Shown piece by piece: positions 11,948-31,175 of a stretch of DNA of 33,139 nucleotides. Source of the stretch: Gammaproteobacteria bacterium. GTDB lineage: Bacteria > Pseudomonadota > Gammaproteobacteria > Pseudomonadales > Pseudohongiellaceae. The stretch covers positions 1-33,139 of the forward strand of contig JAESQX010000235.1 in the NCBI GenBank assembly GCA_016764875.1. The letters run 5' to 3'. Numbering within the stretch: the stretch's first letter is position 1; each line of letters begins with the position of its first letter. A program made the translations under genes and the position numbers. A model generated the notes under the pieces. That model was not told the DNA's origin, did no database searches, and was given only the letters and a program-made list of their open reading frames with translations.

Positions 11948-12177
11948 ACGGCTGGTATAGGTGCTTTCATTGGCCTATTGTTAAGGATGAGTTAAGGGAT
12001 AATGCGGTAGAAGGGAAGGAGCAGATGATATTGCGGTCTACGTGACTGAAACGGAAAGTTTTTGAACACGCAACTTGGCGCGAACTGCGGCATAAAAAGG
12101 CTTAAAAGCGTCTAAAATACGATAACAGGTAGATTCTTCAATACAACAGGGTTTCAGGGTTGGCCAGGGAACAAGTG

Positions 12178-13227
12178 ATGAATAGAGATCGAATACATAA
12201 AGCAATAGTAATTGGGGTTCTGGGAGTGGCACTTGCAGCCTGTGAGTCTTCCAGCACACAGTCGCAAAGCTCGTCGCAAAGCATGCCTTCGAGTCCTTCG
12301 TCCAGCTCCTCGTCCTCGTCATCTTCCAGCCAGAGCTCGTCCAGCAGCTTTCCATCTTCGAGCTCTTCATCCAGCTCGTCCAGCAGCTTTCCATCTTCGA
12401 GCTCTTCATCCAGCTCATCAAGCGGTTTGCCCTCCGCATCGTCTTCATCCAGTCCATCAGGCGGTTTTCCTTCTGCATCGTCTTCGTCCGATGGTTTGCC
12501 TTCTGTGTCATCCTCCTCCGGAAGCAGCCCCGGGCTTCCTTCCAGTTCGGGAGCCTCTTTTCCGTCTAGCGGTAGCTCAGGCGTGACAGCAGGATCACCC
12601 GGCGCTGAGTCGGGCACCTCCAGCAGGAATGGATCCGGTGATACAGGAACTTTCGGGCAAAGGGACTCATCCACAGGCGACCTCTCATCCGGGCGTCAAG
12701 GCCCCACAGGTTCTCAATCAGGTGGTGGAAGCGGAGATTATAGTCTCGATACACTTCCGGACGGCGCATTTGGTGGGGATGGTGGTGCTCAAACCACTGG
12801 CACTATGACATCGGCTGAACGGACACGGGTTCTGGATGAGCAGTTACGTAAAGGCTATGAAGTATTTGATGGTATTATTCTCGATGAAAGAGAACGTAAT
12901 CAGACGGATCGAAATGCGAACCCGGGTGGTTTTGGTCGTGTGGGTGATGGTTCATCAGAAAGCGGTGGATCGGCAGGAGCAGCCGGGCGTCCTCAAACTT
13001 TGCCTGCCAACGGGTCGGCAACAGGGCCACAGGTAATTGCACAGTCATCAACTTCTGCGGCACCCAGTGGCGCATCATTCCCACCGCCTGATGACATACC
13101 CAGCGGGCGTGACGATGACGTGGTTGCAAGGCAATTGCGTGAGGCCGCTACGAAAGAACCGGACCCTGAATTGCGCGAAGCATTATGGGAAGAATACAGA
13201 AACTACACAGGTATAAGCGAGCAATAG
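12178..13227 (+). CDS. Ser-rich low-complexity lipoprotein
   Basis: ATG 12178 gives MNRDRIHKAIVIGVLGVALAACESSST..., with lipobox LAAC; long poly-Ser tract followed by Gly/Ser/Pro-rich region and a more ordered acidic C-terminus (ERTRVLDEQLRKGYEVFDGIILDERERN). Confidence 0.8.
   Translation: MNRDRIHKAIVIGVLGVALAACESSSTQSQSSSQSMPSSPSSSSSSSSSSSQSSSSSFPSSSSSSSSSSSFPSSSSSSSSSSGLPSASSSSSPSGGFPSASSSSDGLPSVSSSSGSSPGLPSSSGASFPSSGSSGVTAGSPGAESGTSSRNGSGDTGTFGQRDSSTGDLSSGRQGPTGSQSGGGSGDYSLDTLPDGAFGGDGGAQTTGTMTSAERTRVLDEQLRKGYEVFDGIILDERERNQTDRNANPGGFGRVGDGSSESGGSAGAAGRPQTLPANGSATGPQVIAQSSTSAAPSGASFPPPDDIPSGRDDDVVARQLREAATKEPDPELREALWEEYRNYTGISEQ
12334..12489 (+). repeat. 39-bp (13-codon) in-frame minisatellite in the Ser-rich lipoprotein
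   Basis: Units at 12334-12372 and 12373-12411 are identical (agctcgtccagcagctttccatcttcgagctcttcatcc); diverged 39-bp units at 12412-12450 and 12451-12489; degenerate copies on either side. Confidence 0.9.
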
Positions 13228-13229
13228 GA

Positions 13230-14414
13230 ATGAAACGATTGAGCCGCCACTTTATTTCTGTACTGATGTTAGCTGTTTTTGTCAGCAGCTGTGCTTCTCA
13301 TGTTGTTAAATCAACCACTTACACACCGGTGATTGTGGACACAGAAATCATTCCTGAAGAACTGTTGCTCGATGTTGGCGTAGCGATTTTTGATCCAGGT
13401 ATTGACGAGATTGAGAAGTCCGAGGAAGAGACCACTAATAGCCAGATCCGTGTGGCAGAGTCCAACTTTGTATCCTTTCTGGTTTCTGAAACCTTGCAGC
13501 GCTCAGGGAACTGGGGCGTAGTTAGAGTTTTGCCCGCCAACTCAAGTCCGATGGATGTGATGCTTTCGGGCACCATACTGCAATCCAACGGCGAAGCCAT
13601 GACAATTCGCGTCAATGTCAAAGATTCAACTGGCCGGAAATGGTACACACGCGAGTATCACGAAGTGATAAGCCAGTTTAGTTATGACCCATCCCAGCGC
13701 AAGATGAATGATCCGTTTCAGGTCATTTACAATAAAATAGCCAACGACCTGCTTGCCTATCGCAAGGGGAATATCTCAGAGAATAGAATCACCGATATTC
13801 GAACAGTTTCGGAGCTATTATTTGCCCAGCGGTTTGCTCCTCAGGTTTTTGAGCAATACATAGGACAGGATCGGAATGGGTATTATCAGGTTAGTCGTCT
13901 ACCTGCGGACAATGACCCTATACTGCTGCGTATACAGGACATTCGCGAACGGGACTTCATGTTTATCGATACAGTTCAGGATTATTACGAAACCTACAAT
14001 CGGCAAATGAGGCTACCCTACGATTCCTGGAGAGAGCAAAGCTATTACGAAACGATTACCCTCAGGGAAATAAAAGCTTCCTCCAGGCGTCGATTAATTG
14101 CGGGGACGGCGGCCGTTGTGGGTGGTATAGCGGTCGCAGCAAACGCAGGCAGTTATGCGGCTCAAAGTGGTGGGTTTGCGGGTGTTGGTGCAGGGGCCTA
14201 CCTGATTAAAAGTGGCTTCGAGAAACGAGCTGAAGCCCAGATTCATGTTGCGGCACTGGAGGAGCTGGGCCTTTCGCTGGAAAATGAAGTAGCACCCAAA
14301 GTGATTAACCTTGAAGATCGTACGGTAACGCTCACTGGAAATGTAGAAGAACAATACAGCCAGTGGAAAGAAATTCTTGCAGACTTGTATGTGGCTGAAG
14401 TCGGAGAACAGTAG
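13230..14414 (+). CDS. Lipoprotein with internal Gly/Ala-rich hydrophobic (glycine-zipper-like) segment
   Basis: ATG 13230 gives MKRLSRHFISVLMLAVFVSSCASH with lipobox VSSC; internal RLIAGTAAVVGGIAVAANAGSYAAQSGGFAGVGAGAYLIKSGF. Confidence 0.8.
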   Translation: MKRLSRHFISVLMLAVFVSSCASHVVKSTTYTPVIVDTEIIPEELLLDVGVAIFDPGIDEIEKSEEETTNSQIRVAESNFVSFLVSETLQRSGNWGVVRVLPANSSPMDVMLSGTILQSNGEAMTIRVNVKDSTGRKWYTREYHEVISQFSYDPSQRKMNDPFQVIYNKIANDLLAYRKGNISENRITDIRTVSELLFAQRFAPQVFEQYIGQDRNGYYQVSRLPADNDPILLRIQDIRERDFMFIDTVQDYYETYNRQMRLPYDSWREQSYYETITLREIKASSRRRLIAGTAAVVGGIAVAANAGSYAAQSGGFAGVGAGAYLIKSGFEKRAEAQIHVAALEELGLSLENEVAPKVINLEDRTVTLTGNVEEQYSQWKEILADLYVAEVGEQ

Positions 14415-14468: not shown

Positions 14469-16010
14469 ATGTCTGAAAATGGAATTGAAAAGATCGAGCC
14501 AGCCGACTTCGATATAAGCAAGTCTTCTCTGTTTTCGAATGAGCCAGCACAACCAACGAAAAATAAGCCATCATTGCTGGTGTGGATAAGCCTCGGTTTT
14601 CTGGCGGTCATCGCCCTTGCTGTTATTTTTGTTCTCCCCACACTTGTTACCGAGTATGAATTGCCTCTGGAACGTAGAGTTGAAGTAGACCAGCTGACCC
14701 CCAGGAACCCAACTGCAAATCAACAGGAAATAAATGCGGTCTCACCTTTTGATGAAGCCCAGAAATCATTGCAGCGAAAAGAGGCACAGGATGTGCTGGC
14801 GCAGTTACTTGGAATTCAAGCCGAACTTGACATAAAGGCAGTGGAAAAATGGGCATCTCAGGAGTACGAAGACGCTTTGGAATTTGCCAGGGCCGGTGAT
14901 GAGTCTTACCTGGTACAGGAATTTATTGAAGCCCGCGATAGCTATGATGAAGGTTTGCTAGCCTTACAGGCAATACAGGAGCAAATTCCTGTAGCAATAA
15001 GCCAGCACCTGATCGACGGCGAAGCCGCCTTAATTGCAAATCAGTCAGAGGGGGCAGTAGAAAAATTTTCCATCGTGTTGAATTTGCAGCCGGACAACAG
15101 CCAGGCAGAAATTGGTCTGGGTAGAGCCGAGGCTTTGGACCAAGTGAATACTTTGCTGGATCAGGCGGGAGAATTAATGGAAGCGGGTGAACTGGAATCT
15201 GCGAGAGACTTGTACCTTGCTGCACTGGATCTGGATGATCGTAATGAAATAACACAAAGTCGACTGAAGCAAGCGAGTGCGCAAATATTGGAAAATGAAT
15301 TTGCGGCGATTATGTCAGAAGGATATGAGTTATTTCAGGATGAACAGCCCGAGGGTGCAATTCAATCATTTCAACGGGCAGCAGCCCTTGGTATCAAGCA
15401 GGGTCAGGCAGAGGCAGCTATTCAGCAAACCCGGGATGAAGTGGCCCGTGTCGAAATAGATCGACTAAGGGATGATGCCCTGAATGCGCGGGATACTGAA
15501 CAATGGCAAGAAGCTGTTGCTGCATATGCCAGTGTGTTGGATATTGATGGCAATCTAGTCTTTGCCCAGGAAGGGAGAGATTACACTGAGAAACGGCTAC
15601 GTCTTGATCAGTTGCTGGATTACGCAAATGCAAATCCGGAAAGACTTGCGGATGACGAAGTCTATAAACAGACACTGGATATTTACTACACCGGGCGTGG
15701 CCTGGAACCACCCGGGGCACACTTACTGGAACAGTTGAATCAGCTTCAGGAGTTTCTGGACAGTTCACAGGTTCCGCTATCAGTTAGTCTTGATTCGGAT
15801 AACCTTACCCAGGTTACTCTGCTCAGGATTGGAGAGCTGGGTGCATTCGTTTCACATACGCTCTCGTTAAAGCCAGGGCGTTACGTGGCCATGGGGACCA
15901 GAGAAGGCTACAGGGATGTGCGAGAGGAATTTACTGTTGGTTTCGGGCAGACACCTGATTCTGTTGTTGTAAAATGTGATGAAAGAATAGTCGCTACAAG
16001 AGGTCGTTAA
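14469..16010 (+). CDS. Single-TM-anchored TPR protein
   Basis: 513 aa; cytosolic N-tail, TM LLVWISLGFLAVIALAVIFVLPTLV, repeated TPR-like helices (GAVEKFSIVLNLQPDNSQAEIGLGRAEAL; QEAVAAYASVLDIDGNLVFAQEGRDY), PEGA-like beta C-terminus. Confidence 0.75.
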   Translation: MSENGIEKIEPADFDISKSSLFSNEPAQPTKNKPSLLVWISLGFLAVIALAVIFVLPTLVTEYELPLERRVEVDQLTPRNPTANQQEINAVSPFDEAQKSLQRKEAQDVLAQLLGIQAELDIKAVEKWASQEYEDALEFARAGDESYLVQEFIEARDSYDEGLLALQAIQEQIPVAISQHLIDGEAALIANQSEGAVEKFSIVLNLQPDNSQAEIGLGRAEALDQVNTLLDQAGELMEAGELESARDLYLAALDLDDRNEITQSRLKQASAQILENEFAAIMSEGYELFQDEQPEGAIQSFQRAAALGIKQGQAEAAIQQTRDEVARVEIDRLRDDALNARDTEQWQEAVAAYASVLDIDGNLVFAQEGRDYTEKRLRLDQLLDYANANPERLADDEVYKQTLDIYYTGRGLEPPGAHLLEQLNQLQEFLDSSQVPLSVSLDSDNLTQVTLLRIGELGAFVSHTLSLKPGRYVAMGTREGYRDVREEFTVGFGQTPDSVVVKCDERIVATRGR

Positions 16011-16014
16011 TGGC

Positions 16015-18093
16015 ATGGAAAGCATTGACGAAAACAAAGTAAATGGATCAACTGACCCGATAGTTCCCATAGATTTCACCCCCAACCAGGATAAAGGGGA
16101 GAAGTTTTCTTTTCGATTTCGCTGGTTACACCTATTCCTTATTCTGTTTCTCGCAATGTCCGGCTCGGCCGCCTGGTTTGTGCTGACCGCCAAATCGATT
16201 GCTATAGATGTCACCCCCCTTACCGCCAGTATCCAACTTGAAGGCGGATTGGCCATAAAAATGGGCCCGCGTTTTTTGGTCAGGGAGGGGGTGTACGAGA
16301 TAAGTCTGACCAATGAAGGCTATCATGATTTAACCACCAACTTGTTTGTTACCGATCAGCAATCCCAGTCGCATCCAATTGAAATGCGAAGGCTGCCGGG
16401 ACTGGTGACCATTGAGGTGCTTTCCCTGGAAGGAGCGCGGGTGCAGATTGATTCAGTGGATATAGGCGTGACTCCGCTGGTGGATGTACCGGTAGAAGCA
16501 GGGAAACATGAAATGTTGATCTCCCGGGATCGTTATCTTCCGGCTAAAGAGCAGATTGTTGTGGAGGGACGTTCCATACGAGAGCGATTTGAACTTGAAC
16601 TGGCCCCGGCATGGGCGGTTGTCAGCCTTGTTAGTGAGCCGGCTGCGGCGGAAGTTTTGATTGACGGAGTGCCGGTTGGCTTTACTCCAATGAATGCTGA
16701 AGTGCTTCAGGGGGACAGGGAGTTCACCATAAAACTGGCCGGCCACAAAGCCTGGCAGGGCGATATTTCTATCGAAGCCGGAAGGGATCTGGTAATCCCT
16801 GGAATAGTCTTGGAGGCTGCGGATGGTCTGGTATTTATCCGTTCCAACCCCAGTAACGCAAGTGTAACCATCAGCGGAGAGTTCAAAGGACAGACACCCC
16901 TCGAAGTTGCCTTGACCCCTGGGGAGCGTCATGAAATTACGCTGTTCAAGGCTGGGTATGCCTCCGGTACTCGAAGTATTCAAACAGCTCCGGACGAGGA
17001 AACCGAGCTGAATATAAAGCTGGAACCAGTCATGGCCAGTGTCCGGGTGCAGGCCAGCCCGGAAGACGCGCAGCTGTATATAAATGGTGAATTTCGTGGG
17101 CTGGCTAATCAGACCCTGGAACTGATGGCGGTGAGCCAGCAGATTGAAATTAGAAAGCAGGGGTATGTCCCCCACACAGCAGAATTTACCTCGCGACCCG
17201 GGTTGGAACAAGTTATCCGGGTTACTCTCAAGTCTCTCGAACAAGAACGGTTGGAGAAAATCAAGCCGGTTATTACAACGCTGGCAGGGCAGACACTTAA
17301 ATTGTTCTATCCTGGCACCATTACCATGGGGGCATCGCGACGAGAAGCAGGTCGAAGGCCAAACGAATCAATACGCGAAGTGACCCTGGAGCAGCCCTTT
17401 TACTTCAGCCTGTACGAAGTAACAAATGGGGAATACAAGAAATTTAAAGCGGACCATTCATCCGGTACTTTTCAAAGTCAGCCTCTTGGTCTGGATTTAC
17501 AGCCAGTCACCCAGGTGAATTGGAATGATGCCGCGCTTTATTGCAACTGGTTAAGCAAGCAGGAGGGGCTGCCCCTGTTTTACCAGGAGACAGATGGCGA
17601 AGTGGTGGGGTTTGATCCGCAGTCAACGGGATATCGATTACCTTCGGAAGCCGAGTGGGCCTGGATAGCAAGATTCAATGGCAGCGAAGCGGCTCTCAAA
17701 TATTCCTGGGGAGATCAACTGCAACCACCTGACGGTGCGGGTAATTTTGCAGATGTTACCGCGCAGGCTTACCTGGGTCAGGTTTTGTTTGATTACAATG
17801 ACAGCTACCTTGGTTCGGCGCCGGTTGGAGATTTTACGCCAAACTACCATGGGGTATATGACATGGCCGGTAATGTAGCGGAATGGGTGCATGATTTTTA
17901 TGGTACTGCCGGGAGCCTCGGTGGTGCGACTGAAGTTGATCCTCTTGGGCTACAGTCCGGGCAGTACCACACCATAAGGGGATCCAGTTGGACCCATGGT
18001 TCTATAACCGAGCTTAGATTGTCTTTTCGGGACTTTGGTGAAGTGCAGCGCAATGATCTTGGATTCAGAATTGCTCGATACCTGGGAGAATGA
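16015..18093 (+). CDS. TM-anchored PEGA-repeat protein with C-terminal formylglycine-generating enzyme (SUMF1)-like domain
   Basis: 692 aa; TM WLHLFLILFLAMSGSAAWFVL; at least four PEGA repeats (e.g. AEVLIDGVPVGFTPMNAEVLQGDREFTIKLAGH; ASVTISGEFKGQTPLEVALTPGERHEITLFKAGY); FGE motifs YRLPSEAEWAWIAR, YSWGD, VYDMAGNVAEWVHDFY, IRGSSW, DLGFRIAR. Confidence 0.88.
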   Translation: MESIDENKVNGSTDPIVPIDFTPNQDKGEKFSFRFRWLHLFLILFLAMSGSAAWFVLTAKSIAIDVTPLTASIQLEGGLAIKMGPRFLVREGVYEISLTNEGYHDLTTNLFVTDQQSQSHPIEMRRLPGLVTIEVLSLEGARVQIDSVDIGVTPLVDVPVEAGKHEMLISRDRYLPAKEQIVVEGRSIRERFELELAPAWAVVSLVSEPAAAEVLIDGVPVGFTPMNAEVLQGDREFTIKLAGHKAWQGDISIEAGRDLVIPGIVLEAADGLVFIRSNPSNASVTISGEFKGQTPLEVALTPGERHEITLFKAGYASGTRSIQTAPDEETELNIKLEPVMASVRVQASPEDAQLYINGEFRGLANQTLELMAVSQQIEIRKQGYVPHTAEFTSRPGLEQVIRVTLKSLEQERLEKIKPVITTLAGQTLKLFYPGTITMGASRREAGRRPNESIREVTLEQPFYFSLYEVTNGEYKKFKADHSSGTFQSQPLGLDLQPVTQVNWNDAALYCNWLSKQEGLPLFYQETDGEVVGFDPQSTGYRLPSEAEWAWIARFNGSEAALKYSWGDQLQPPDGAGNFADVTAQAYLGQVLFDYNDSYLGSAPVGDFTPNYHGVYDMAGNVAEWVHDFYGTAGSLGGATEVDPLGLQSGQYHTIRGSSWTHGSITELRLSFRDFGEVQRNDLGFRIARYLGE

Positions 18094-18409: not shown

Positions 18410-19225
18410 ATGAAGCAAGGTTTATTATGGGAATTTATTTACCAGATTGCCGCACTCATTGTGGCTGTAATACTGGTACATTCTGTTTATGTCACGATTG
18501 TCAGGCCAAACGCAGATTTGATACAGGAGCAACAGACATTCCTGCAGCAGAATGATGAAAATTACGTTCCAGAACGCTCAGTATACGTAATTCTTAAAGA
18601 TTACGAACAGGAAACCTGCATTATTTTACTGTTCTGGGCGATTTCCATTATTGGATTGAAAATTCAACATGCCATTAAGGAGAGGTCTCTGCTGGATAAT
18701 GAATTAGTCCAGATTGCAGAAGGAATGAGTATATTACCCGAGGATTCAAGAAATTTTGCGCGTCCGGTGGAAGCCCTGCCAGAGATACAACGGGATTATT
18801 TGTTACCAAGGGCACTACTGGCAGGGCTGCATAGATTCCAGACTACCCGTAATATTCAGGATGTTGCCAGTACCGTGAAAGATGTCTGTGAGATTGAGTC
18901 GGAGCGGCTCGAAACCGAACTTGCTCTCGTGCGCTACATTGCCTGGGCAATTCCATCTATTGGATTCCTGGGAACGGTCAGAGGTATAGGTCAGGCTCTG
19001 GGGCAGGCATATCAAGCTGTAAGTGGAGATATAGTCGGGGTAACCGTGAGTCTCGGGGTGGCGTTTAATTCAACTTTTGTTGCACTGGTGGTAAGTATTT
19101 TGCTGATGTTCCTGTTGCACCAGCTTCAGCTGCTACAGGACAGGCTGGTGCTTGATGCACAGAACTATTGTGATAAAAACCTGGTGCAATATTTACAGGT
19201 TCCTGATCAGAGAAGTCTTGTATGA
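18410..19225 (+). CDS. MotA/TolQ/ExbB proton channel family protein
   Basis: 271 aa; two N-terminal TMs, cytosolic region, then ETELALVRYIAWAIPSIGFLGTVRGIGQALGQAYQA...VGVTVSLGVAFNSTFVALVVSILLMFLLHQLQ, the MotA/TolQ/ExbB signature. Confidence 0.9.
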   Translation: MKQGLLWEFIYQIAALIVAVILVHSVYVTIVRPNADLIQEQQTFLQQNDENYVPERSVYVILKDYEQETCIILLFWAISIIGLKIQHAIKERSLLDNELVQIAEGMSILPEDSRNFARPVEALPEIQRDYLLPRALLAGLHRFQTTRNIQDVASTVKDVCEIESERLETELALVRYIAWAIPSIGFLGTVRGIGQALGQAYQAVSGDIVGVTVSLGVAFNSTFVALVVSILLMFLLHQLQLLQDRLVLDAQNYCDKNLVQYLQVPDQRSLV

Positions 19226-20616
19226 GCCTGAAAGTTATTGAACTAAACGACAGCGCCGTCACGGTCAGTGATGAAAGCGGGTTGATTTTTCAGAGCCCTG
19301 GATTTGCCCAGTTCGGTGATGAGGGTCTTGTGGTGGGTGAAGAGGCGGAGAAACAGACTCGAATAAGGCCCACCAGTAGTTTCAATAAATTCTGGCATCA
19401 ACTCAGTATGGAGCCCCTGGGTTATTCTGTTGGCGGCGTAAGACATTTCGCAGATCTTGCCTTTGCTCACCTGATGCATCTAGCGGACGAAGCAAAAATC
19501 GATGGAGACGTTATTCTTGCCGTGCCGGGCAATTTCACCAGTGCCCAGTTATCAATCCTGCTGGGTATAACCAGCCATTGTCCTTTTAATCCTGTTGGAG
19601 TTGTAGATGCTGCACTGGCCAACACCATCAGGTTGGCAAGGAAGCCGCATATAATCTACGCGGATATTCAGTTACATCAGGCATTATTGACTAAATTTTC
19701 CATAACGGATGGAAACCTGCAGCGCGATACAGTTATTCAGATTCCTGAAGCTGGTTTACAGAATTTTATGGATCTAACCATGCAGCTTGCAACCGGGCTG
19801 TTTATTCAACAATGCCGTTTTAACCCTCAGCATACTGCAGAATCAGAGCAGCAGCTTTATAACGCTCTACCTGCCTGGTTGAAACAACATAAGGACTCAA
19901 AAAGCAGTCTGTTGATGGAGATTAAAACAGCCAGTGCCATACACCAGGCCAAGTTGCCATGGAAAAGCCTGGTACAAGAACTTGCTGGATATTACGCCAG
20001 GATAAATCAACAGTTGACGGCACTGGCCAGTGAAGGTAACTGTCAGATACTGATTTCAGCAAGCCTTGCTCAATTGCCCGATTACATTCAATCAGCGCCG
20101 TCCCACAGTGATGTACAAGTCGTGTCGCCCGAATTACTGGGTAAGACTTGTATCGAATTACAACAGTATATTGATAGCAACGGGGAAGGTTTCCATTTTG
20201 TCACCCGGTTGCCTCTGGTATCCACTGGGGCTTCAAACCATGAGTTCGAATCTGGCACCGTGAGTGAGGAGCCAGCACCCCTCGAGACAGGTGAGCACCC
20301 GGGTCTCCCCACCCACGTCTTATTTGAGAACCATGCCTTGCCTCTGGGGAAGGTGGCTATCAGAAATGATGGTGCCGGCGGTACCACTGCGGCAGTAAAT
20401 GGGCGGGGTATATGCTTGGCACTCAGTGAGATGCCGGACTATCTGGGGCAAATTGAAAAGGAAGACGACCGGGTGTTCATGGTCTGTGGAGAAGCAGGGG
20501 CCATTGTAAATGGAGAAAAAGTAGCGGGAAGGAAGCAATTGTCATTAGGAGACCAGATAACATTCAATGATCAGGGTAAAGCTATTACCCTGATCAGGGT
20601 ACGCGATGGCGTCTAA
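19222..20616 (+). CDS. Hsp70/actin-like protein (degenerate) with FHA-like C-terminal domain
   Basis: 464 aa; DVILAVPGNFTSAQLSILLGITSHCPFNPVGVVDAALANTIRL resembles the Hsp70 core; C-terminus GAIVNGEKVAGRKQLSLGDQITFNDQGKAITLIRV resembles FHA beta-strands; 4-bp overlap with the upstream gene. Confidence 0.65.
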   Translation: MSLKVIELNDSAVTVSDESGLIFQSPGFAQFGDEGLVVGEEAEKQTRIRPTSSFNKFWHQLSMEPLGYSVGGVRHFADLAFAHLMHLADEAKIDGDVILAVPGNFTSAQLSILLGITSHCPFNPVGVVDAALANTIRLARKPHIIYADIQLHQALLTKFSITDGNLQRDTVIQIPEAGLQNFMDLTMQLATGLFIQQCRFNPQHTAESEQQLYNALPAWLKQHKDSKSSLLMEIKTASAIHQAKLPWKSLVQELAGYYARINQQLTALASEGNCQILISASLAQLPDYIQSAPSHSDVQVVSPELLGKTCIELQQYIDSNGEGFHFVTRLPLVSTGASNHEFESGTVSEEPAPLETGEHPGLPTHVLFENHALPLGKVAIRNDGAGGTTAAVNGRGICLALSEMPDYLGQIEKEDDRVFMVCGEAGAIVNGEKVAGRKQLSLGDQITFNDQGKAITLIRVRDGV

Positions 20617-21706
20617 TAAAAAAAAGCGCAGAGATTTAAATCCGTTAAGCCTGGCATTCCTGGATGTTATGTCATGCGGTTTTGGCGCGGTAGTGCTGTT
20701 ATTTCTGATTCTCGATCACTCTGCCCAGGTGGAGGCCGTAGAAGGCAATCCTCAAATCGAAGCTGAGGTAAATCTGTTGCAAGTAGAGATCAGGGAGGGT
20801 GAACTTAATCTGGTACGGGTTCGCAATACGATTTCTGATGTAAATCTGGAAGTCGTTACGGCACAGGGCCTGGCCGATCGTATCCAGGAACAGATTGATA
20901 ATTTTCTCCAGGAGCTTGCCGCACTGGAAAACAGTGCTGTGGTAAGTACCGATGTCATCGAAGAGTTACGTGCCGAAATTCAGGCGCTGGAGGACGAGCT
21001 GCAGCGCTTACAGGCCAGCGCCCTTGAGGCAGAAGGCAATAGTGTACGACAGTTTCTGGGGGATGGAGACAGGCAATATTTGTCCGGGATGTTCCTTGGA
21101 GGTAATCGAATTCTCATCCTGATGGATAAATCGGCCAGTATGCTGGATGAAACACTGGTTAATATTATCAGAACTCGAAATATGTCTGAGGAACGCAAAC
21201 TCAATGCGCCGAAATGGCAACGTGCTGTCAAAACTGTGGAATGGATTACCAGCCAGCTGCCCATCACCAGTCGTTATCAGATTTACGGTTTTAATGACGA
21301 GACTGATGTAATGCTGGAAGGAACCGAAAACCAGTGGCTTGAGGTGGCAGACCGGGAACGACTGGAGGAAGTCATCACCGAAGTAAGGGCAATAGTACCT
21401 GATGCGGGCACCAACATGGTGCGACTTTTCCAAACCGTAGCTCAAATGACACCATTGCCGGATAATATATTTTTAATTACGGATGGGTTGCCCACACTTG
21501 GCAATCGTCGCAGTTCAGGTTCTCTGGTGACACCGAGTCAAAGGCTGGAATTATTTGACGATGCTCTGGAGGAACTGCCGGATAATATTCCGGTCAACGT
21601 TATATTGCTGCCTCTTGAAGGCGATCCCAGTGCCGCAGCCGCCTTCTGGCAGTTGGCACAGTACACCAGGGGCTCATTTCTTACCCCGTCACCTGATTGG
21701 CCCTGA
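20606..21706 (+). CDS. ExbD-like TM / coiled-coil / vWA-domain protein (1)
   Basis: 366 aa; N-terminal TM LSLAFLDVMSCGFGAVVLLFLIL; heptad-like coiled coil; vWA with MIDAS DKSAS (ILILMDKSASM), GTN, IFLITDGLPTLG. Confidence 0.85.
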   Translation: MASNKKKRRDLNPLSLAFLDVMSCGFGAVVLLFLILDHSAQVEAVEGNPQIEAEVNLLQVEIREGELNLVRVRNTISDVNLEVVTAQGLADRIQEQIDNFLQELAALENSAVVSTDVIEELRAEIQALEDELQRLQASALEAEGNSVRQFLGDGDRQYLSGMFLGGNRILILMDKSASMLDETLVNIIRTRNMSEERKLNAPKWQRAVKTVEWITSQLPITSRYQIYGFNDETDVMLEGTENQWLEVADRERLEEVITEVRAIVPDAGTNMVRLFQTVAQMTPLPDNIFLITDGLPTLGNRRSSGSLVTPSQRLELFDDALEELPDNIPVNVILLPLEGDPSAAAAFWQLAQYTRGSFLTPSPDWP

Positions 21707-22704
21707 TGCGCAGGAACAGAGAAACAGACTCGTACAGTGTTGCCTTTCTGGATGTGATGTCCTGTGGTTTTGGGGCTATTATCCTGTTATTGATGATTAC
21801 CAGGAGTGCGGCGCCGGTTATTATTGAAATCAGCGACGTGGATACCACTGGGTCGGTTAATGAGTTACAAGAGCAACTTTTTGCTATCCGGGGAGAAACA
21901 ACTACGTTAGACCGGGAGCTGAATGCCAAACAGGAGCAGCTTTCGACCTATCAGGAGAGGGTGGCGCGTCTGCGGAGGGAATTGACACAGGCTCAGGCGC
22001 AACACCAGATTACCAGCCAGACATCCGAAGAAACCGCCGATGAACTGGGGCAATTAAACATTGCCAGACAGGCGCTTAGTGCTGAAATGCAGCGCCTTCT
22101 CGAGCAGAATTTCGCTAAACAGGACAATGTCATAGCGGGTATTCCGGTGGACAGCGAGTACATTATTTTCGTTATTGACACCTCCGGCAGTATGTATCAA
22201 TCAAGCTGGAGCAGAATGCTGGAAGTAATAGGCAATACCCTGGATGTCTACCCTGAGGTAAAAGGTATCCAGGTGATGAATGACATGGGAGATTATATGT
22301 TTGACTCCTACCGTGGACAGTGGATTCCAGATACACCAAGTCGGCGGAATTTGATTATTTCCACCCTGCGCACGTGGAATCCATACAGTAACAGCAGTCC
22401 GGTTGAAGGGGTTACCAGGGCGATAAATTCATTTTATTCGCCGGATAAAAAAATAAGTATTTATGTACTCGGTGATGATTTCCAGCCCGGCGGGTCTATT
22501 ACAGAGGTATTGCGGGTAATTCAGCGTATAAATCTTGAAGGTGCCGATGGGGAACGCCTGGTTAGAATTCATGGGATTGGATTTCCCAATATTTTTCAAT
22601 TGGACAGGCGCTTTCAGCAAAGTGTCTATCGATATTCAAACCTTATGCGAGAGTTGACTCAGCGAAATGGCGGGACTTTTGTGGGTTTGAACGATTATCG
22701 ATAA
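21706..22704 (+). CDS. ExbD-like TM / coiled-coil / vWA-domain protein (2)
   Basis: ATG 21706 (TGATG overlap with the upstream stop); TM YSVAFLDVMSCGFGAIILLLMI; coiled coil; vWA with MIDAS DTSGS (IIFVIDTSGSMY), ISIYVLGDDF. Confidence 0.85.
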   Translation: MRRNRETDSYSVAFLDVMSCGFGAIILLLMITRSAAPVIIEISDVDTTGSVNELQEQLFAIRGETTTLDRELNAKQEQLSTYQERVARLRRELTQAQAQHQITSQTSEETADELGQLNIARQALSAEMQRLLEQNFAKQDNVIAGIPVDSEYIIFVIDTSGSMYQSSWSRMLEVIGNTLDVYPEVKGIQVMNDMGDYMFDSYRGQWIPDTPSRRNLIISTLRTWNPYSNSSPVEGVTRAINSFYSPDKKISIYVLGDDFQPGGSITEVLRVIQRINLEGADGERLVRIHGIGFPNIFQLDRRFQQSVYRYSNLMRELTQRNGGTFVGLNDYR

Positions 22705-22874
22705 TCAGGCCTTGCATAAAATGGCTAAATTAATAAGCGGTTCCTCAAAAATGAGGTATAAATATAGATTCTCAACGAGATTTCATTTAGACATTATTCA
22801 AGAGGCCTTTTTTCATTACCGGTTTATCTATAAATTTCTACCGAGGAGCCTGAACCAGGGCATTGGCAGCGACA

Positions 22875-23504
22875 GTGATTAAATTAGTTAATATTTGGAA
22901 CCCCAGATCAATACGCGGGCTGATGATGGCGGCGATGTTTGGCATTTTAGCTGCATGTGGCGTCAATAACGTTACCGTTACAGGAACTTATCCTACTCCG
23001 AATGTGGGAAAGCTGCCTCTGAAAATAGCAGTCTATTATGACGAAGCACTACGGGATTTCAGTTACATCGAATACACCGAGACCGGTAAGGAAGAGTTCG
23101 ATATTCATAGTGGGCAATCACATATAGATCTGTTTAATGCCATTCTTCCAGGAATGTTTGAGCAAATTGTCATAGTCGACTCCATGGAAGAAGCAAAAGG
23201 CACGGGGGTGGACGCTGTATTTGCGCCGGCTATTGAAGAGTTTCAACTGGCGTTGCCCTACAAAACCAAACTGGACATGTTTGAAGTCTGGATTAAATAC
23301 AATATGCGATTATTAACAGCTGATGGTGAATATATCGCCGACTGGGTAGCGACTTCATACGGGAAAACCCCCACAGAAACCTTCCGTTCTAACGAAGCGG
23401 GAATCAATGAAGCGGCATTTAGCGCATTGCGAGATCTGGGTTCCAGTTTCTCCCTGAATTTTGCTCGGGTTCCAGAGGTTCGCGACTGGTTGGCCAGTAG
23501 ATAA
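22875..23504 (+). CDS. Lipoprotein of unknown function
   Basis: Lipobox LAAC in RGLMMAAMFGILAACGVNN; start ambiguous (TTG 22863 in the track, or GTG 22875); GAGGAG at 22843-22848. Confidence 0.72.
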   Translation: MIKLVNIWNPRSIRGLMMAAMFGILAACGVNNVTVTGTYPTPNVGKLPLKIAVYYDEALRDFSYIEYTETGKEEFDIHSGQSHIDLFNAILPGMFEQIVIVDSMEEAKGTGVDAVFAPAIEEFQLALPYKTKLDMFEVWIKYNMRLLTADGEYIADWVATSYGKTPTETFRSNEAGINEAAFSALRDLGSSFSLNFARVPEVRDWLASR

Positions 23505-23635
23505 ATGAGATTTAAGGATAATAAAATGACTGTCAGCGAATTTTGCTGTTACTTATAAACCGGGCTCTGCGCTGTATCTGTGGATCAGGCTGACAAGATG
23601 CAACGCTGTAAAGACCGGTTAATGTGAGGCTGCTT

Positions 23636-24319
23636 ATGTATAACTATAATTACAAAGTTAAATCAGGTGTAACGGGAACAGGGATAGCCGTTCTGTTCAC
23701 TGTGGCGCTGGCAAGTTGTACCACTACGACGATTGATGAGTTTCGTCAGGGCGAAACAGGAATAGAGAGCCATGAATCAATTGTTATTCTGGGCCGCAGG
23801 CAGGCCAGTAATTACGAAACCCGGGAAGATTTTGTCAATTGTGTCGGCGAACACGTTAATCAGGGAGAGAACGGTATTAATGTGGTACCCGAACAGGAGT
23901 TTGTTGATGCACTGTTCCCCTGGTTTGAGCCACGCACAGCTCCGCTTCGAACCCAGGATCTTGAAAGGCTGATGGCCGAATCAGTAGTGGCAGAAAAACT
24001 GGATGAATTTGGAATTCGCTATATTGTCTGGGTTGATGGTTTTACCGAAACGACCGGAAGAACAGGCTCAATATCCTGTGCTATTGGCCCTGGCGGTGGT
24101 GGCTGTTTTGGTTTCGGCACCTGGGAAGATGATTCCCGGTTTGATGCCAGAGTATGGGACGTTGATGCACTGACATCGGTTGGCACCATCAGGGCAGATG
24201 CTACGGGCCAATCTTATATGCCCGCGCTGGTTATCCCTATTCCGCTGATTGCCAGGGTTGAAGCCAACGCATGTAGCAGTCTGGCCAACCAGCTCAAGCA
24301 GTTTGTTAGAGGTTCTTGA
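23636..24319 (+). CDS. Lipoprotein of unknown function
   Basis: MYNYNYKVKSGVTGTGIAVLFTVALASCTTTT with lipobox LASC; track start GTG 23624, ATG 23636 plausible. Confidence 0.72.
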   Translation: MYNYNYKVKSGVTGTGIAVLFTVALASCTTTTIDEFRQGETGIESHESIVILGRRQASNYETREDFVNCVGEHVNQGENGINVVPEQEFVDALFPWFEPRTAPLRTQDLERLMAESVVAEKLDEFGIRYIVWVDGFTETTGRTGSISCAIGPGGGGCFGFGTWEDDSRFDARVWDVDALTSVGTIRADATGQSYMPALVIPIPLIARVEANACSSLANQLKQFVRGS

Positions 24320-24355: not shown

Positions 24356-25879
24356 ATGGCTAGCTTAGAGACATTATCCACAGCAAATTTTCCCTGCTCT
24401 GTATTAATTGCACGAAGTTGGCGTGTCACCGCAGTGCTGTTGCTTGGTGCATTGACAATGATCCTAGCAACGTCGTGTGCAATGAACCCTGCTACCGGGC
24501 GGGGGAATATGGTTTTAATGACAGAAAACGGGGAAAAGAAAATAGGTGAAGAAGAACACCAGAAAGTAATAGATAGTATGCCTATTTATGAAGATGAAGA
24601 ACTGCTTGCCTATGTGACTGGCGTTGGCAATCGCATCGTCGGGGTAAGCCACCGTGATGACCTGGATTATCAATTTACCATTATCGACAGCCCGGAAATT
24701 AACGCGTTTGCATTACCCGGGGGCTATGTATACATTAATCGTGGGTTGCTTACCTATACTAATTCCGAAGCCGAACTGGCGGCGGTTTTAGCCCACGAAA
24801 TAGGCCATATAACGGCCCGTCACGGGGTGCAACAACACGCCCGGGGCAAGGTGGCCAATGTAGTATCGTCAGTGGGGGGAGTCGTGGCGGCGGTGGCTAC
24901 AGGAAGTGGCTATATTGGTTCACAAATAAGTGAGGTGACTTCGATCTGGGCCCAGGCCGGGCTCAGTGGATATGGGCGGGATGCTGAATTGGAAGCGGAC
25001 AGTCTCGGGGCAGACTATTTATACAAAGCGGGCTACGACCCGGCGGCCATGATAGAAGTCATTACAACGCTGAAAAACCAGGAAGATTTCAAACGTCGGG
25101 TGACTGGCGAAGGAGGAGGCTACCATGGTTTGTTCGCGTCCCATCCGCGAAATGATACCCGCTTGCAACAGGCCATCGCTAATGCGGGTAAGCTGGATTC
25201 CGACCAGGTTCTGGAAGTTGATGACGAGAACTTTCGAAACCAGCTTGAAGGATTATTGATCGGCGTCAGTAGAGCCTCTCAATCCAGGGACGACCGAAAT
25301 CGGTATTATCAGACCCTCTTGAGTTACACCATGATATTTCCCGACCAGTGGGAGGTTTCAGAGACCACCACAACAGTGACAGCGGTAGGCGTTGATAATG
25401 ATTCGCTTAATGTTAGCGCGCAGCGATTACAGGATAATATCGAACCCCGTGTATTTATCGCAGAGAAACTCGGTATTAAGAATCTACAAAAATCTGGAGC
25501 GCTGTCGCAATATCGATTGCTGGGTCACACAGGGGTAGTTGAAACTGAAGATGGTGGTATGGAACGTGTGGCGGTTATTTATATGGGAGCGCGCGTTTTT
25601 ATATTGCGGGGCAGCATTAGTAACATCGAAGCAGCAGAAGAAATCGACCGGCAGTTGCTGGCTTCAATTCGCACCTTCCGAGCAATACAGCGAAGTGAAA
25701 TTACACCCGGTAGTGAGCTGAAAATAACGTATGTTCAGGCCAGTGAATTTTTTGATTTTGCCACCGTGGCACGTGACAGCAAACTCGCCAGTTATCCGGA
25801 AGAAACTTTACGCTTGTTAAATGGTTACTACCCCAGGGGCCTTCCGGAAAAAGGAGACTGGGTCAAGCTGGTTGATTAA
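24356..25879 (+). CDS. M48 family metalloprotease, probable lipoprotein
   Basis: 507 aa; zinc motif AHEIGHITARHGVQQHA with downstream ELEADSLGADYLYKAGYDP; lipobox-like LATSC; C-terminal domain after about residue 270. Confidence 0.9.
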   Translation: MASLETLSTANFPCSVLIARSWRVTAVLLLGALTMILATSCAMNPATGRGNMVLMTENGEKKIGEEEHQKVIDSMPIYEDEELLAYVTGVGNRIVGVSHRDDLDYQFTIIDSPEINAFALPGGYVYINRGLLTYTNSEAELAAVLAHEIGHITARHGVQQHARGKVANVVSSVGGVVAAVATGSGYIGSQISEVTSIWAQAGLSGYGRDAELEADSLGADYLYKAGYDPAAMIEVITTLKNQEDFKRRVTGEGGGYHGLFASHPRNDTRLQQAIANAGKLDSDQVLEVDDENFRNQLEGLLIGVSRASQSRDDRNRYYQTLLSYTMIFPDQWEVSETTTTVTAVGVDNDSLNVSAQRLQDNIEPRVFIAEKLGIKNLQKSGALSQYRLLGHTGVVETEDGGMERVAVIYMGARVFILRGSISNIEAAEEIDRQLLASIRTFRAIQRSEITPGSELKITYVQASEFFDFATVARDSKLASYPEETLRLLNGYYPRGLPEKGDWVKLVD

Positions 25880-26060: not shown

Positions 26061-29012
26061 ATGAATCGCGAACAATCACGGATGTGTGGTGCACAGGGGC
26101 TCCCTGATCAACTACAAGAGATTGTTTCACGATTTTGGCAGCGACTGGCGGAGCATCCTGATTTCGAAAATAAAGGGCTGAGTCAGCTATTCTTCGATGA
26201 TAAGAAATTTTCACAAGAAACAGCTCGCGTCTGGGCCGCCAGTGACTTCGTTGCCAACGCGATTCTGTCCAATCCTGATCTTCTGTCAGGTATTTATTCC
26301 CGGCGCGAATCCGAAATTACGAACTACCAGGAACGCCTGGAATCAGCTTTGGGCTCCCTGAAGGACGATGATTACAAGACGGGATTCGAACAGCTTAAAT
26401 CGCGATTACGTTATTTTTACCGACTGGAATTTATCCTCATAATCTGGCGTGATATCTGTGGTTATACAAACGTGCATGAGGTTTGTAATCAGATGTCTGA
26501 ACTGGCGGACGCCTCATTGCAGGTGACACTGGATTTGCTTCATTGCTGGGGTACAAAGCAGTGGGGTCAGCCCATGGCTGACGGGAAAACCCAGTCGATG
26601 GTGGTGATCGGAATGGGCAAACTCGGGGCCAGGGAACTTAATGTTTCCTCCGACATTGATCTGATTTTTGCCTATCAATCCGTGGGTAACACGGAACCTA
26701 CCGGAAACGATGTTGAACCGTTGACCAATCAGCAATTTTTTACTCGAATTGGGCAGCGCTTGATTGATGCCCTGGACAGTACCACCGAACAAGGTTTTGT
26801 CTTTCGCATGGACATGCGGCTTCGTCCCTACGGGAGTGAAGGGGCACTGGTGTTGAACTTTGACGCCATGGAAGATTATTACCAGAACCAGGGACGAGAC
26901 TGGGAACGTTATGCGTTTATCAAGGCCCGTATCGTGGCTGGAAATATCTCGCAAGGAAAGCAGTTACTGAAAAGGCTGAAGCCTTTTGTTTATAGACGCT
27001 ATCTTGATTTTGCCATGTTTGAATCGTTACGTGATATGAAATCACAGATCGATAAGCAGGCCAGGCGCGGCAAGCAGTTGACCGATATAAAACTTGGCCC
27101 AGGTGGAATCCGCGAGGTGGAATTCATAATACAGGCGCTACAACTGGTATATGGTGGCCGTGACAGTTCATTACAGCAACCATCAATCGTTCAGGCCTTT
27201 GCTAATCTGGTTCAGGGAGGCTACCTGCCAGAGTCGGCGGCCGGAGACCTTCTGTCAGCTTACGAGTTTCTTCGCAATCTTGAACACCGGCTGCAGGCAC
27301 TGGCAAATCAGCAGACTCAAAGCCTGCCCACAAATCCGCAACAGCAATTGAGAATTGCTATTGCAATGGGCTGTCAGGACTGGGATGAATTGCTGGACGC
27401 TTTGAACCAGAAACGGAGCGTTGTAAGCGAGCATTTTCGCGACGTATTGAGAACAGAAGACGAGTCAGATGAGGCAAAACAACAAGCAGACGATTGGGCC
27501 CCTTTGTGGAATCTGGAAATAACTGGCGATGACGCCCTGCAAATGTTGGTAAAGGCCGGATTCGAGGACGCCGACGGCAGTCTTGAGCGTATACAACAAT
27601 TCCGCAAGAATAAGAAATGGCTGATTCTTGGTGAACAAAGTCGAAACCGCCTGAATATTTTTATGCCGGTGCTGCTTGATGCCGTAAGCGGATCGGACAA
27701 ACCCAGCTTGTGCCTGAGTAGAGTGATGCCATTGGTAGAGGCCGTCAGTCGGCGCACGGCCTATCTGGTGTTACTGCTGGAAAATCCACAGGCATTGAAG
27801 CAGCTGGTGCTTTATTGCACGCAAAGTCCCCTTATCTCGGAATACTTAAGCAAATACCCGGTATTGCTTGATGAGTTGCTACATGTGCTCAATGAACCTC
27901 CTGATAAACGCTCTCTGGCGGATGAACTTAATGCGCAGTTAATAAGAATAGACGAGGAAAATTTTGAGGAGCAACTGAATTGCCTGCGTTATTTTAAGCA
28001 GGCACATTTGTTACAGGTAATTGCGGCGGAAGTATCCGGGGAAATGCCCTTGATGAAAGTAAGTGACTATCTAACTTTCACCGCTGAAGTAATCCTTGAT
28101 GCCGTGCTTGCCCTGTCCTGGCAGCACCTGGTTTCCAGGCACGGTTATCCCGTTCATACCGATGGCAAGTACGGTGAACCTGAATTCGCCATAGTGGGCT
28201 ATGGAAAACTTGGAGGTATTGAGCTTAGCTATAACTCGGACCTTGATCTGGTGTTTCTACATCAGGGGTCTTTGGATAAAGACACTGTTGTAACTGGCGC
28301 ACAAAAATCGATTAATAGCAGGGCTTTTTATATCAAGATGGCGCAGCGAATTATAACCATACTTGGCACTTACACGATGTCGGGCGAGCTCTATGAAGTA
28401 GACATGCGGCTTCGGCCTTCGGGGGATTCCGGTCTATTGGTCAGCTCAATAGAATCGTTTCTTGAATACCAACAGGAAAAGGCATGGACCTGGGAGCATC
28501 AGGCCCTGGTAAGGGCGCGGGGTGTTGTAGGGAATGCGCCGTTGCTGGAAAAATTTCTGCAAGTGAGAAAACAGATATTGACCCGGCAAAGAGACATTGG
28601 AACGCTTGCAGAAGAAGTAATTACCATGCGTGAACGGATGCGCAAAGAACTCACCAGCAAATCATCTTCATCCCTGGACAAAATCTCTTTTGAAATCAAA
28701 CAGGGGAAGGGCGGAATAGTTGATATCGAATTCCTGGTGCAGTACCTGGTATTGGCACACTCGCATCGGTATGAAGAATTGCTGAGCTACACGGATAATT
28801 TTAGAATACTGGAGGTGGCGCGAGAGTGTCAGTTGCTCCATGAAGATGATATGAACACGCTCATTAAGGCTTATCTCGGTTTCAGATCCGCCACACACCA
28901 GATTGCGTTGCAAACCGAAGAGGGATTGCCATCGCTGGAGAATCTTCGACAGCTGCAGTGTTCGGTAACCGCAATCTGGGACAAGGTGTTCGATTGTGTT
29001 CCCAGGCCCTGA
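26061..29012 (+). CDS. glnE: Bifunctional glutamine synthetase adenylyltransferase/adenylyl-removing enzyme
   Basis: 983 aa; two nucleotidyltransferase modules (GMGKLGARELNVSSDIDLIFAY and GYGKLGGIELSYNSDLDLVFLH), RLRPYGSEG and RLRPSGDSG, KLGPGGIREVEFIIQ. Confidence 0.97.
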   Translation: MNREQSRMCGAQGLPDQLQEIVSRFWQRLAEHPDFENKGLSQLFFDDKKFSQETARVWAASDFVANAILSNPDLLSGIYSRRESEITNYQERLESALGSLKDDDYKTGFEQLKSRLRYFYRLEFILIIWRDICGYTNVHEVCNQMSELADASLQVTLDLLHCWGTKQWGQPMADGKTQSMVVIGMGKLGARELNVSSDIDLIFAYQSVGNTEPTGNDVEPLTNQQFFTRIGQRLIDALDSTTEQGFVFRMDMRLRPYGSEGALVLNFDAMEDYYQNQGRDWERYAFIKARIVAGNISQGKQLLKRLKPFVYRRYLDFAMFESLRDMKSQIDKQARRGKQLTDIKLGPGGIREVEFIIQALQLVYGGRDSSLQQPSIVQAFANLVQGGYLPESAAGDLLSAYEFLRNLEHRLQALANQQTQSLPTNPQQQLRIAIAMGCQDWDELLDALNQKRSVVSEHFRDVLRTEDESDEAKQQADDWAPLWNLEITGDDALQMLVKAGFEDADGSLERIQQFRKNKKWLILGEQSRNRLNIFMPVLLDAVSGSDKPSLCLSRVMPLVEAVSRRTAYLVLLLENPQALKQLVLYCTQSPLISEYLSKYPVLLDELLHVLNEPPDKRSLADELNAQLIRIDEENFEEQLNCLRYFKQAHLLQVIAAEVSGEMPLMKVSDYLTFTAEVILDAVLALSWQHLVSRHGYPVHTDGKYGEPEFAIVGYGKLGGIELSYNSDLDLVFLHQGSLDKDTVVTGAQKSINSRAFYIKMAQRIITILGTYTMSGELYEVDMRLRPSGDSGLLVSSIESFLEYQQEKAWTWEHQALVRARGVVGNAPLLEKFLQVRKQILTRQRDIGTLAEEVITMRERMRKELTSKSSSSLDKISFEIKQGKGGIVDIEFLVQYLVLAHSHRYEELLSYTDNFRILEVARECQLLHEDDMNTLIKAYLGFRSATHQIALQTEEGLPSLENLRQLQCSVTAIWDKVFDCVPRP

Positions 29013-29040
29013 GCGGAGATTGATATTCAGGTAACCAACC

Positions 29041-30081
29041 ATGAGCAATGACCAGCGTATCAATCGAATGCTAATTGTTGGTCCTTCCTGGGTGGGTGAT
29101 ACGGTCATGGCACAATCCCTGCTTAAGCTGTTGCGCCAAATTCATGACGACATGGAAATCACAGTTCTGGCTCCATCGTGGAGCCAGGCGCTGCTGGCGC
29201 GTATGCCGGAAGTTGACCACGCCATAGAATTGCCATTCGGCCACGGGGAGTTAAAGCTATTACGCCGAAGAGAGTTTGCAAGGAAACTTAAAGGTCAGTT
29301 TGATAGCGCCATTATTCTACCGAATTCTTTCAAGTCGGCTCTGATTCCCTTTTTCGCCGGTGTTGGGCAGCGAACTGGCTGGCAAGGTGAATTTCGCAAT
29401 ATGCTATTGACCGATTGTAGAAAGCTGGACCCCGGCAAATACCCGCTGATGGTGCAGCGTTTTCTGGCCCTGGGCCTGGTCCCGGGAGCCGGGCTGATTA
29501 CAGATATACCCAGACCTGATCTTCACAGTGACTCCATTCACGCACGAAAAACAGCCCGGGAATTGAACCTGGATTGCGACAATAAAATTCTGGCGATCTG
29601 TCCCGGGGCAGAATTCGGTGAGGCCAAACAGTGGCCGGCCAGCCATTATGCCCGGCTGTGCGAAATTGCCTCTGCCAATGAGTGGAAGATCTGGATAATC
29701 GGCTCTGCCAATGACCGTGAAGTTGCTACTGAAATTTTTGATCAAATCGACCTGAACACGCGCTCTTCCTGCGTCAATGTGACCGGGAATACTTCATTAA
29801 GCCAAGTCGTCGACCTGCTTTATCTGGCGGGGGCCGTTGTCAGCAATGACTCGGGTCTAATGCATATTGCGGCCGCCGTAGGCTGTCCCGTTGTTGCTCT
29901 ATATGGCTCCACTTCGCCGGACTTTACACCTCCTATGGCAGACAGGGTAAAATCCCTCACTACAGACATAGCCTGTCGGCCCTGCTTTAAAAGAATTTGT
30001 CCCCTCGGGCACAAGCGCTGCCTGACCGAGATCTCAGCCGAAAGGGTTTATAAAGAGTTGAGTAAACTGACAGAAATGTAA
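29041..30081 (+). CDS. waaF: ADP-heptose:LPS heptosyltransferase II
   Basis: MLIVGPSWVGDTVMAQSLLKLL; CPGAEFGEAKQWPASHYA; SNDSGLMHIAAAVGCPVVALYGSTSPDFTPP. Confidence 0.96.
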   Translation: MSNDQRINRMLIVGPSWVGDTVMAQSLLKLLRQIHDDMEITVLAPSWSQALLARMPEVDHAIELPFGHGELKLLRRREFARKLKGQFDSAIILPNSFKSALIPFFAGVGQRTGWQGEFRNMLLTDCRKLDPGKYPLMVQRFLALGLVPGAGLITDIPRPDLHSDSIHARKTARELNLDCDNKILAICPGAEFGEAKQWPASHYARLCEIASANEWKIWIIGSANDREVATEIFDQIDLNTRSSCVNVTGNTSLSQVVDLLYLAGAVVSNDSGLMHIAAAVGCPVVALYGSTSPDFTPPMADRVKSLTTDIACRPCFKRICPLGHKRCLTEISAERVYKELSKLTEM

Positions 30082-30104
30082 TTGAACTCCGGAGTTTCAA
30101 GCAG

Positions 30105-31175
30105 TTGCGAGTCTTAATAGTAAAAGTTTCTTCCCTGGGCGATGTCATACATACGCTTCCTGCCATCACCGATGCAAAACGGGCCAATAGAGACCTCGTA
30201 TTTGACTGGGTTGTTGAAGAAAAATTTACCGAAATTCCTGCCTGGCATCCTGCCGTAGAGTCGGTGATTCCAGTTGCTATCAGGCGCTGGCGTCGAAATT
30301 GGATAAAAACCTTTATTAACTCAGATGTGGGCAGGTTCAGGAAACAGCTGCAGAATGTAGACTACGACCTGGTTATTGATGCCCAGGGATTAATCAAAAG
30401 CGGCATAGTAAGCCGGATGTCCAAGGGCCTGACCATCGGGTTAAGCAGTCGCACGATAAAGGAACCGCTGGCCACAATTTTCTATAATAAGGTGTATTCG
30501 GTGTCATGGTCGGAGCATGCTGTTGACCGGATCCGCGAACTTTTTTCACGAATTTTCAAATACGAGTACGATAAAAGCCATGTAGATTACGGGTTGGAAT
30601 TTAAACGTATTGGTATAAAAGAAAATGAGCCAAAAGAAAAGCAGCTGGTATTCCTGCATGGGACAACCTGGAAAACGAAACACTGGCCGGACCAATACTG
30701 GCGTCAACTTGGGTTGATAGCCACTGAGGCCGGTTACAAGGTGCTACTGCCCTGGGGTGATGAATCAGAAAAGGCGCGGGCAACCTTTATCGCAGGTGAC
30801 AACAAAGCTATCGACATTTTACCGCGGCAATCATTGACTGGACTTGCCATGCACATTGCCAGGTCGGCCGGGGTTATCGCCGTTGATACTGGCCTGGGCC
30901 ATCTGGCGGCGGCATTATCTACGCCGACACTGTCACTTTATGGGCCTACAGACCCAGGGTTATCCGGAACATTCGGAGCGTCGCAAATACATCTGAAATC
31001 TAAATTCGATTGCGCCCCCTGTATGAAAAAAACCTGTGCCTATTCCGGCCCTGAAATTTCTGGTGACTACGATGGGAATTCATTTCCGGTATTTCCGGCC
31101 TGTTTTTCCAGGCAGACGCCCGAGATAGTCTGGCAAAAATTCAAACAACTGATTGATGATTCGGGTGTGTCATGA
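30105..31175 (+). CDS. waaC: LPS heptosyltransferase I
   Basis: MRVLIVKVSSLGDVIHTLPAITDA; HGTTWKTKHWPDQYW; VDTGLGHLAAALSTPTLSLYGPTDPGLSG; TTG start with upstream GGAG. Confidence 0.95.
   Translation: MRVLIVKVSSLGDVIHTLPAITDAKRANRDLVFDWVVEEKFTEIPAWHPAVESVIPVAIRRWRRNWIKTFINSDVGRFRKQLQNVDYDLVIDAQGLIKSGIVSRMSKGLTIGLSSRTIKEPLATIFYNKVYSVSWSEHAVDRIRELFSRIFKYEYDKSHVDYGLEFKRIGIKENEPKEKQLVFLHGTTWKTKHWPDQYWRQLGLIATEAGYKVLLPWGDESEKARATFIAGDNKAIDILPRQSLTGLAMHIARSAGVIAVDTGLGHLAAALSTPTLSLYGPTDPGLSGTFGASQIHLKSKFDCAPCMKKTCAYSGPEISGDYDGNSFPVFPACFSRQTPEIVWQKFKQLIDDSGVS

Follow-up and report, generated by a model that had tools for sequence, protein, structure and literature searches.

A vWA protein pair as the putative axle of an ExbB-like proton motor in a gammaproteobacterial operon

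In the window (the whole stretch of DNA analysed, 33,139 nucleotides of a Gammaproteobacteria bacterium), two adjacent genes code for different vWA proteins that share a membrane helix and lie close to a gene of an ExbB-like protein. The best-supported reading, which we consider probable, is a proton motor of the 5:2 type with a heterodimer of the two vWA proteins as the axle of the ExbB-like ring. This reading follows from the ExbB-like context without a linked ExbD, the conservation of the helix aspartate and of the ring threonines, the paired clades of the vWA proteins and the structural model of the first of them (vWA1). The system of vWA pairs is real and widespread, and the mechanism proposed in the initial annotation is likely and not new. 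Its argument from sequence is weaker than the genomic argument.

The passages of PMC12204202 (Mol Biol Evol 2025, msaf138) on the TPH-vWA family describe TM-tethered vWA proteins that mostly come as heterologous pairs, next to tolQ homologues but with tolR/exbD missing. There the pore helix carries a proton-binding Asp, in AlphaFold3 models the two Asp are surrounded by a ring of Thr, and the motors, with a query from Idiomarina, are spread over Proteobacteria and Verrucomicrobia. The window has two different vWA genes in tandem that fall into two clades, an adjoining ExbB-like gene (PF01618, at 18410) with ExbD unlinked, a conserved helix Asp, and a Thr pair (T189, T222) in the TolQ-like partner. 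Since it matches each of these described features (the Idiomarina sequences themselves aside), the central idea was already published as a prediction. Beyond those passages, the window has an operon with TPR, PEGA-FGE, Hsp70-like, lipoprotein and M48 genes, and its vWA homologues show a two-clade history and an Asp that persists where CGFGA is lost. What is added here is Asp conservation in a search without motif bias, the ancient origin of the pair, and the conserved operon with its TPR, PEGA-FGE and lipoprotein genes. Among the papers searched, there was no experimental or biochemical study of a TPH-vWA-type motor.

The vWA pair and its shared helix

The features of the pair and of its ring partner, all on the forward strand, are as follows.

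18410..19225, +, ExbB/TolQ/MotA-like channel protein of 271 aa, putative pentamer ring (PF01618, E 8e-14)
18974-18976 and 19073-19075, +, pore threonines T189 and T222 of the ExbB-like protein
20606..21706, +, vWA1: TM helix, coiled coil (residues 49-143) and vWA domain (residues 168-366), from PF13519, an AlphaFold2 model and PDB matches
20645..20713, +, vWA1 membrane helix LSLAFLDVMSCGFGAVVLLFLIL, Asp20 at 20663-20665, hydropathy segment from residue 13
21125..21139, +, vWA1 MIDAS-type motif DKSAS, S176 and S178 invariant, D174 conserved at 90% or more
21706..22704, +, vWA2: TM helix, coiled coil and vWA domain, full-length paralogue of vWA1
21733..21798, +, vWA2 membrane helix YSVAFLDVMSCGFGAIILLLMI, Asp16 at 21751-21753
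22177..22191, +, vWA2 MIDAS motif DTSGS, D158 to M163 conserved at 95% or more

The near-identical helix segment reported earlier for the two genes was confirmed. The peptide AFLDVMSCGFGA lies in the N-terminal membrane helix of both proteins, at codons 17-28 of the vWA1 gene and codons 13-24 of the vWA2 gene, in the reading frames originally given. Its back-translated DNA pattern was matched at just two places in the 2.75 Mb genome (20657-20688 and 21745-21776 of the window), while a reversed control pattern had no match. The vWA2 ATG at 21706 overlaps the vWA1 TGA (21704-21706) by one base in TGATG.

We found vWA1 just above the PF13519 cut-off (27.7 bits vs 27), and the Pfam VWA matches of vWA2 were all under cut-off. 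Averaged over 85 locus pairs, the identity between vWA1 and vWA2 was 62% over the 22-residue helix and 23% elsewhere. The earlier statement that the remainder of the two proteins differs strongly is therefore correct for identity but not for ancestry: a profile comparison aligned 315 columns (probability 99.9, E 2e-35), which makes vWA1 and vWA2 ancient full-length paralogues with a common layout. MIDAS-type residues were conserved in both.

In loci holding both genes, vWA1 stood ahead of vWA2 in all 70 found by the motif scan, all 9 found by the protein search and all 16 of the relatives. A maximum-likelihood tree of 41 proteins placed vWA1 and vWA2 each in one clade (support 100/100), and both clades spanned Pseudomonadota, deltaproteobacterial MAGs and Verrucomicrobiota; the longest branches (Opitutales) had an uncertain placement within their own clade. 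Judged from these sequences, the duplication predates the sampled spread. Nearly every locus with room carried one vWA1 and one vWA2. Together with the ancient duplication, this speaks for a heteromer rather than two alternative homodimers, without proving it, and the conserved pairing points to a putative vWA1-vWA2 heterodimer. The nearest cultivated relative seen among the loci was Pseudoalteromonas denitrificans.

The helix Asp was present in 85/85 ungapped vWA1 rows and 90/90 vWA2 rows of the first collection, a conservation that is partly built in because this collection was picked by the motif. A second, motif-free search with the vWA2 protein as query covered 299 genomes of the phylum; 15 of them had a match, counting the genome of the window itself. 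Of the others, 13 had both N-terminal helices in readable form, and all 13 kept FLD. However, eight of the 13 had ASGLGA in vWA1 and SSAFAA in vWA2 in place of CGFGA, with the helix Cys lost from both proteins and the two glycines lost from vWA2 as well. Retention of FLD where CGFGA decays indicates that the Asp is under tighter constraint than the rest of the motif. The conservation on which the initial proposal depended is thus present in every complete homologue, those of the motif-free search included.

The absence of Cys from both paralogues concerned the same eight genomes of one family. Because of this common membership the losses may go back to a single event; the joint loss could reflect a contact of the two helices.

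The ExbB-like partner and the comparison with ExbD

On contigs with room, an ExbB-like gene was found upstream of the pair on the same strand in 44/45 motif-scan, 9/9 protein-search and 16/16 relatives' loci. In the ExbB-like protein, T189 and T222 are 33 residues apart, were invariant in 72 of the 72 aligned sequences, and align with threonines of a canonical ExbB that the genome also encodes. A distance of 33 likewise separates the essential threonines in TolQ and ExbB. A PDB sequence search with the ExbB-like protein gave only weak TolQ and MotA matches (best E 0.23), and a defence-system library gave a weak ZorA match (E 0.0025), the rest being coiled-coil noise. The genome has five PF01618 genes, and three other contigs with such a gene (C22, C162 and C110) each also carry ExbD; on the window's contig PF02472 (ExbD) had no match. 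An isolated ExbD gene, with no ExbB next to it, was seen on contig C154 of the same genome (4434-4922 of locus L230), and this unlinked ExbD could in principle serve the window's ExbB-like protein.

The AlphaFold2 model of vWA1 had helices at residues 14-46, 49-109 and 115-143, and a vWA domain mostly with pLDDT > 90; the membrane-helix region was of moderate confidence. The PDB matches of the model were vWA domains (E about 1e-5). The vWA1 N-terminus is basic and is followed by a hydrophobic helix from about residue 13. Basic residues ahead of a single TM helix suggest, by the positive-inside rule, an N-in/C-out topology, which would place the vWA domain in the periplasm, in line with the initial annotation. 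Two of the three conditions named there as refuting the proposal, a non-conserved Asp and a cytosolic vWA domain, therefore do not apply.

With these features the pair resembles the ExbB-ExbD and TolQ-TolR systems, since it has an ExbB-family partner with both pore threonines, one TM helix at the N-terminus whose Asp lies close to the cytosolic side, and a predicted periplasmic C-terminal part. Unlike these systems, the window has two different putative axle proteins and CGFGA after the Asp; the periplasmic part of vWA1 is a coiled coil with a vWA fold instead of an ExbD-type domain, and the vWA helices have no detectable ExbD profile match.

The proposed resemblance of the helices to that of ExbD/TolR was not significant by any of three approaches. 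The Pfam ExbD model had no match in the vWA proteins at E up to 1. An hhalign profile check against 32 ExbD proteins gave a probability of about 2% for either vWA helix. In an ungapped register test the D-on-D register ranked second of 51, and most permuted helices scored as well. With all three negative, the sequence likeness to ExbD is not evidence, and common ancestry with ExbD is unsupported by sequence. The suggestion that the vWA hetero-pair forms an ExbD-like axle therefore stands on gene context, Asp, threonines and predicted topology, while its part concerning ExbD resemblance was not upheld.

Alternative readings and the motor model

The vWA proteins might instead be force transducers bound to the edge of the ExbB ring, like TolA/TonB, with an unlinked ExbD filling the pore. 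In the corresponding passage of PMC12204202 a separate vWA family with an SHLS helix is proposed to act as TolA/TonB-like transducers, and one ExbD gene of the genome indeed lacks an adjoining ExbB. However, neither vWA helix has the SHLS motif; each has the invariant Asp near the cytosolic end instead, and with PF02472 unmatched on the contig and the two vWA proteins always paired, we regard side-bound transducers as improbable. We give similarly little credence to the pair being an inner-membrane-anchored adhesion or chaperone sensor, which the ExbB-like ring would use only as a regulator or cargo and whose Asp would serve helix packing, not proton transfer. Such a role would suit vWA domains, which usually bind ligands via MIDAS, with MIDAS residues conserved in both proteins, and it would agree with the non-significant ExbD sequence homology; on the other hand, the Asp persists where the rest of the motif decays, and the ring threonines are invariant without a linked ExbD.

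It appears very improbable that the N-terminal segment acts as a signal sequence, cleaved or of the lipoprotein type, which would leave the vWA domains released or lipid-anchored. The VMSC/VISC sequences are lipobox-like and basic residues do precede the helix, but the hydrophobic stretch lies mostly past the Cys, the Asp falls inside the would-be h-region, GFGA after the Cys is highly conserved, and the eight sampled genomes mentioned above lack the Cys in both proteins. Judged from this conservation, cleavage as a signal peptide is unlikely.

In the proton motor of the 5:2 type, the ExbB-like protein would form an inner-membrane ring, probably a pentamer, with one vWA1 and one vWA2 helix running through it as a heterodimeric axle. 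Protons would be taken up by the aspartate of each helix, facing the threonines of the ring, and the proton flow would turn or move the vWA pair. Via the periplasmic coiled coils and vWA domains the motion would then pass to a metal-dependent or protein partner, for which the PEGA-FGE, TPR and lipoprotein components of the operon are candidates, in what would be a trans-envelope machine. In this model the complex and its 5:2 stoichiometry are predicted, as are the use of protons, the rotation and the partners.

The likeliest guess is that the motor works on the envelope or the outer membrane, much as Tol-Pal does. More tentatively, the motor might be the power unit of an undescribed trans-envelope machine that is conserved in several phyla. 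In it the proton-driven vWA heterodimer would act on the TPR and PEGA-FGE proteins and on lipoproteins of the outer membrane, and in many Gammaproteobacteria a cytosolic Hsp70-like protein would be the regulator. If the motor model is true, the family of ion-driven motors includes axles made of two different proteins that end in ligand-binding vWA domains. It would then be a natural system for asking whether axle subunits differ in their jobs and how a moving axle grips its partner; the conserved operon names candidate partners.

The operon and its surroundings

The remaining members of the operon are listed below.

13185..14414, +, putative lipoprotein, conserved operon member (no Pfam match; VSSC lipobox read from sequence)
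14469..16010, +, membrane-anchored TPR protein, conserved operon member (TPR_2 E 4e-6, just under cut-off; conserved upstream)
16015..18093, +, protein with PEGA repeats and FGE-sulfatase fold, conserved operon member (PF08308 E 1e-45, PF03781 E 1e-40; conserved upstream)
19222..20616, +, Hsp70/actin-like protein, cytosolic, with C-terminal beta domain, accessory (AlphaFold2 mean pLDDT 89)
22863..23504, +, putative lipoprotein, mostly Gammaproteobacteria (LAAC lipobox read from sequence; conserved downstream)
23624..24319, +, putative lipoprotein, mostly Gammaproteobacteria (LASC lipobox read from sequence; conserved downstream)
24356..25879, +, BepA-like M48 metalloprotease, mostly Gammaproteobacteria (PF01435 E 9e-36; NF052400 E 6.5e-40, below cut-off)

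The gene order is 13185 lipoprotein-like, TPR, PEGA-FGE, a small gene, ExbB-like, Hsp70-like, vWA1, vWA2, two lipoproteins and M48 protease. In 16 relatives this order was largely retained, as it also was on contigs labelled Gammaproteobacteria, Alphaproteobacteria (Sneathiella), deltaproteobacterial groups (Desulfogranum and others) and Verrucomicrobia/Opitutales. The 13185 lipoprotein was kept upstream in Alpha-, Gamma- and deltaproteobacterial loci. On contigs with room, PEGA-FGE was present in 15/17 motif-scan, 8/8 protein-search and 14/16 relatives' loci. The Hsp70-like gene, whose product had Hsp70-type nucleotide-binding domains as best PDB matches (E about 1e-15), occurred in 32/45, 1/9 and 16/16 loci of the same three sets and was absent from distant loci. 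An NCBIfam scan of the upstream genes gave none above cut-off, a promoter scan gave as many matches as expected from shuffled sequence, and a plasmid search with vWA2 gave no match.

The link of a motor to an FGE-fold protein is reminiscent of GldLM-GldK of type IX secretion, and the window's PEGA-FGE protein matched GldK with E 5e-26. A GldK-type secretion system was rejected, as the GldK score was 92 vs a curated cut-off of 350 and neither a GldM-like gene nor any other of T9SS was seen; the likeness to GldLM is thus only a loose analogy. The FGE-fold domain of the 16015-18093 protein reads RGSSWTHGSITELRLSFRD, where active FGE enzymes have a Cys pair, and by this reading it may be non-catalytic.

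Upstream of the operon, a TPR protein (10556-11947) has a C-terminal segment like a TonB/AgmX-type domain (NF033768, weak, E 0.03). A putative lipoprotein (12160-13227, LAAC) has an extremely long serine-rich stretch; its place ahead of the operon recurred in relatives, a recurrence that low-complexity matching may inflate. The downstream region (26061-33105) is ordinary, with GlnE, two heptosyltransferases, a glycosyltransferase and a Kdo/WaaP-type kinase.
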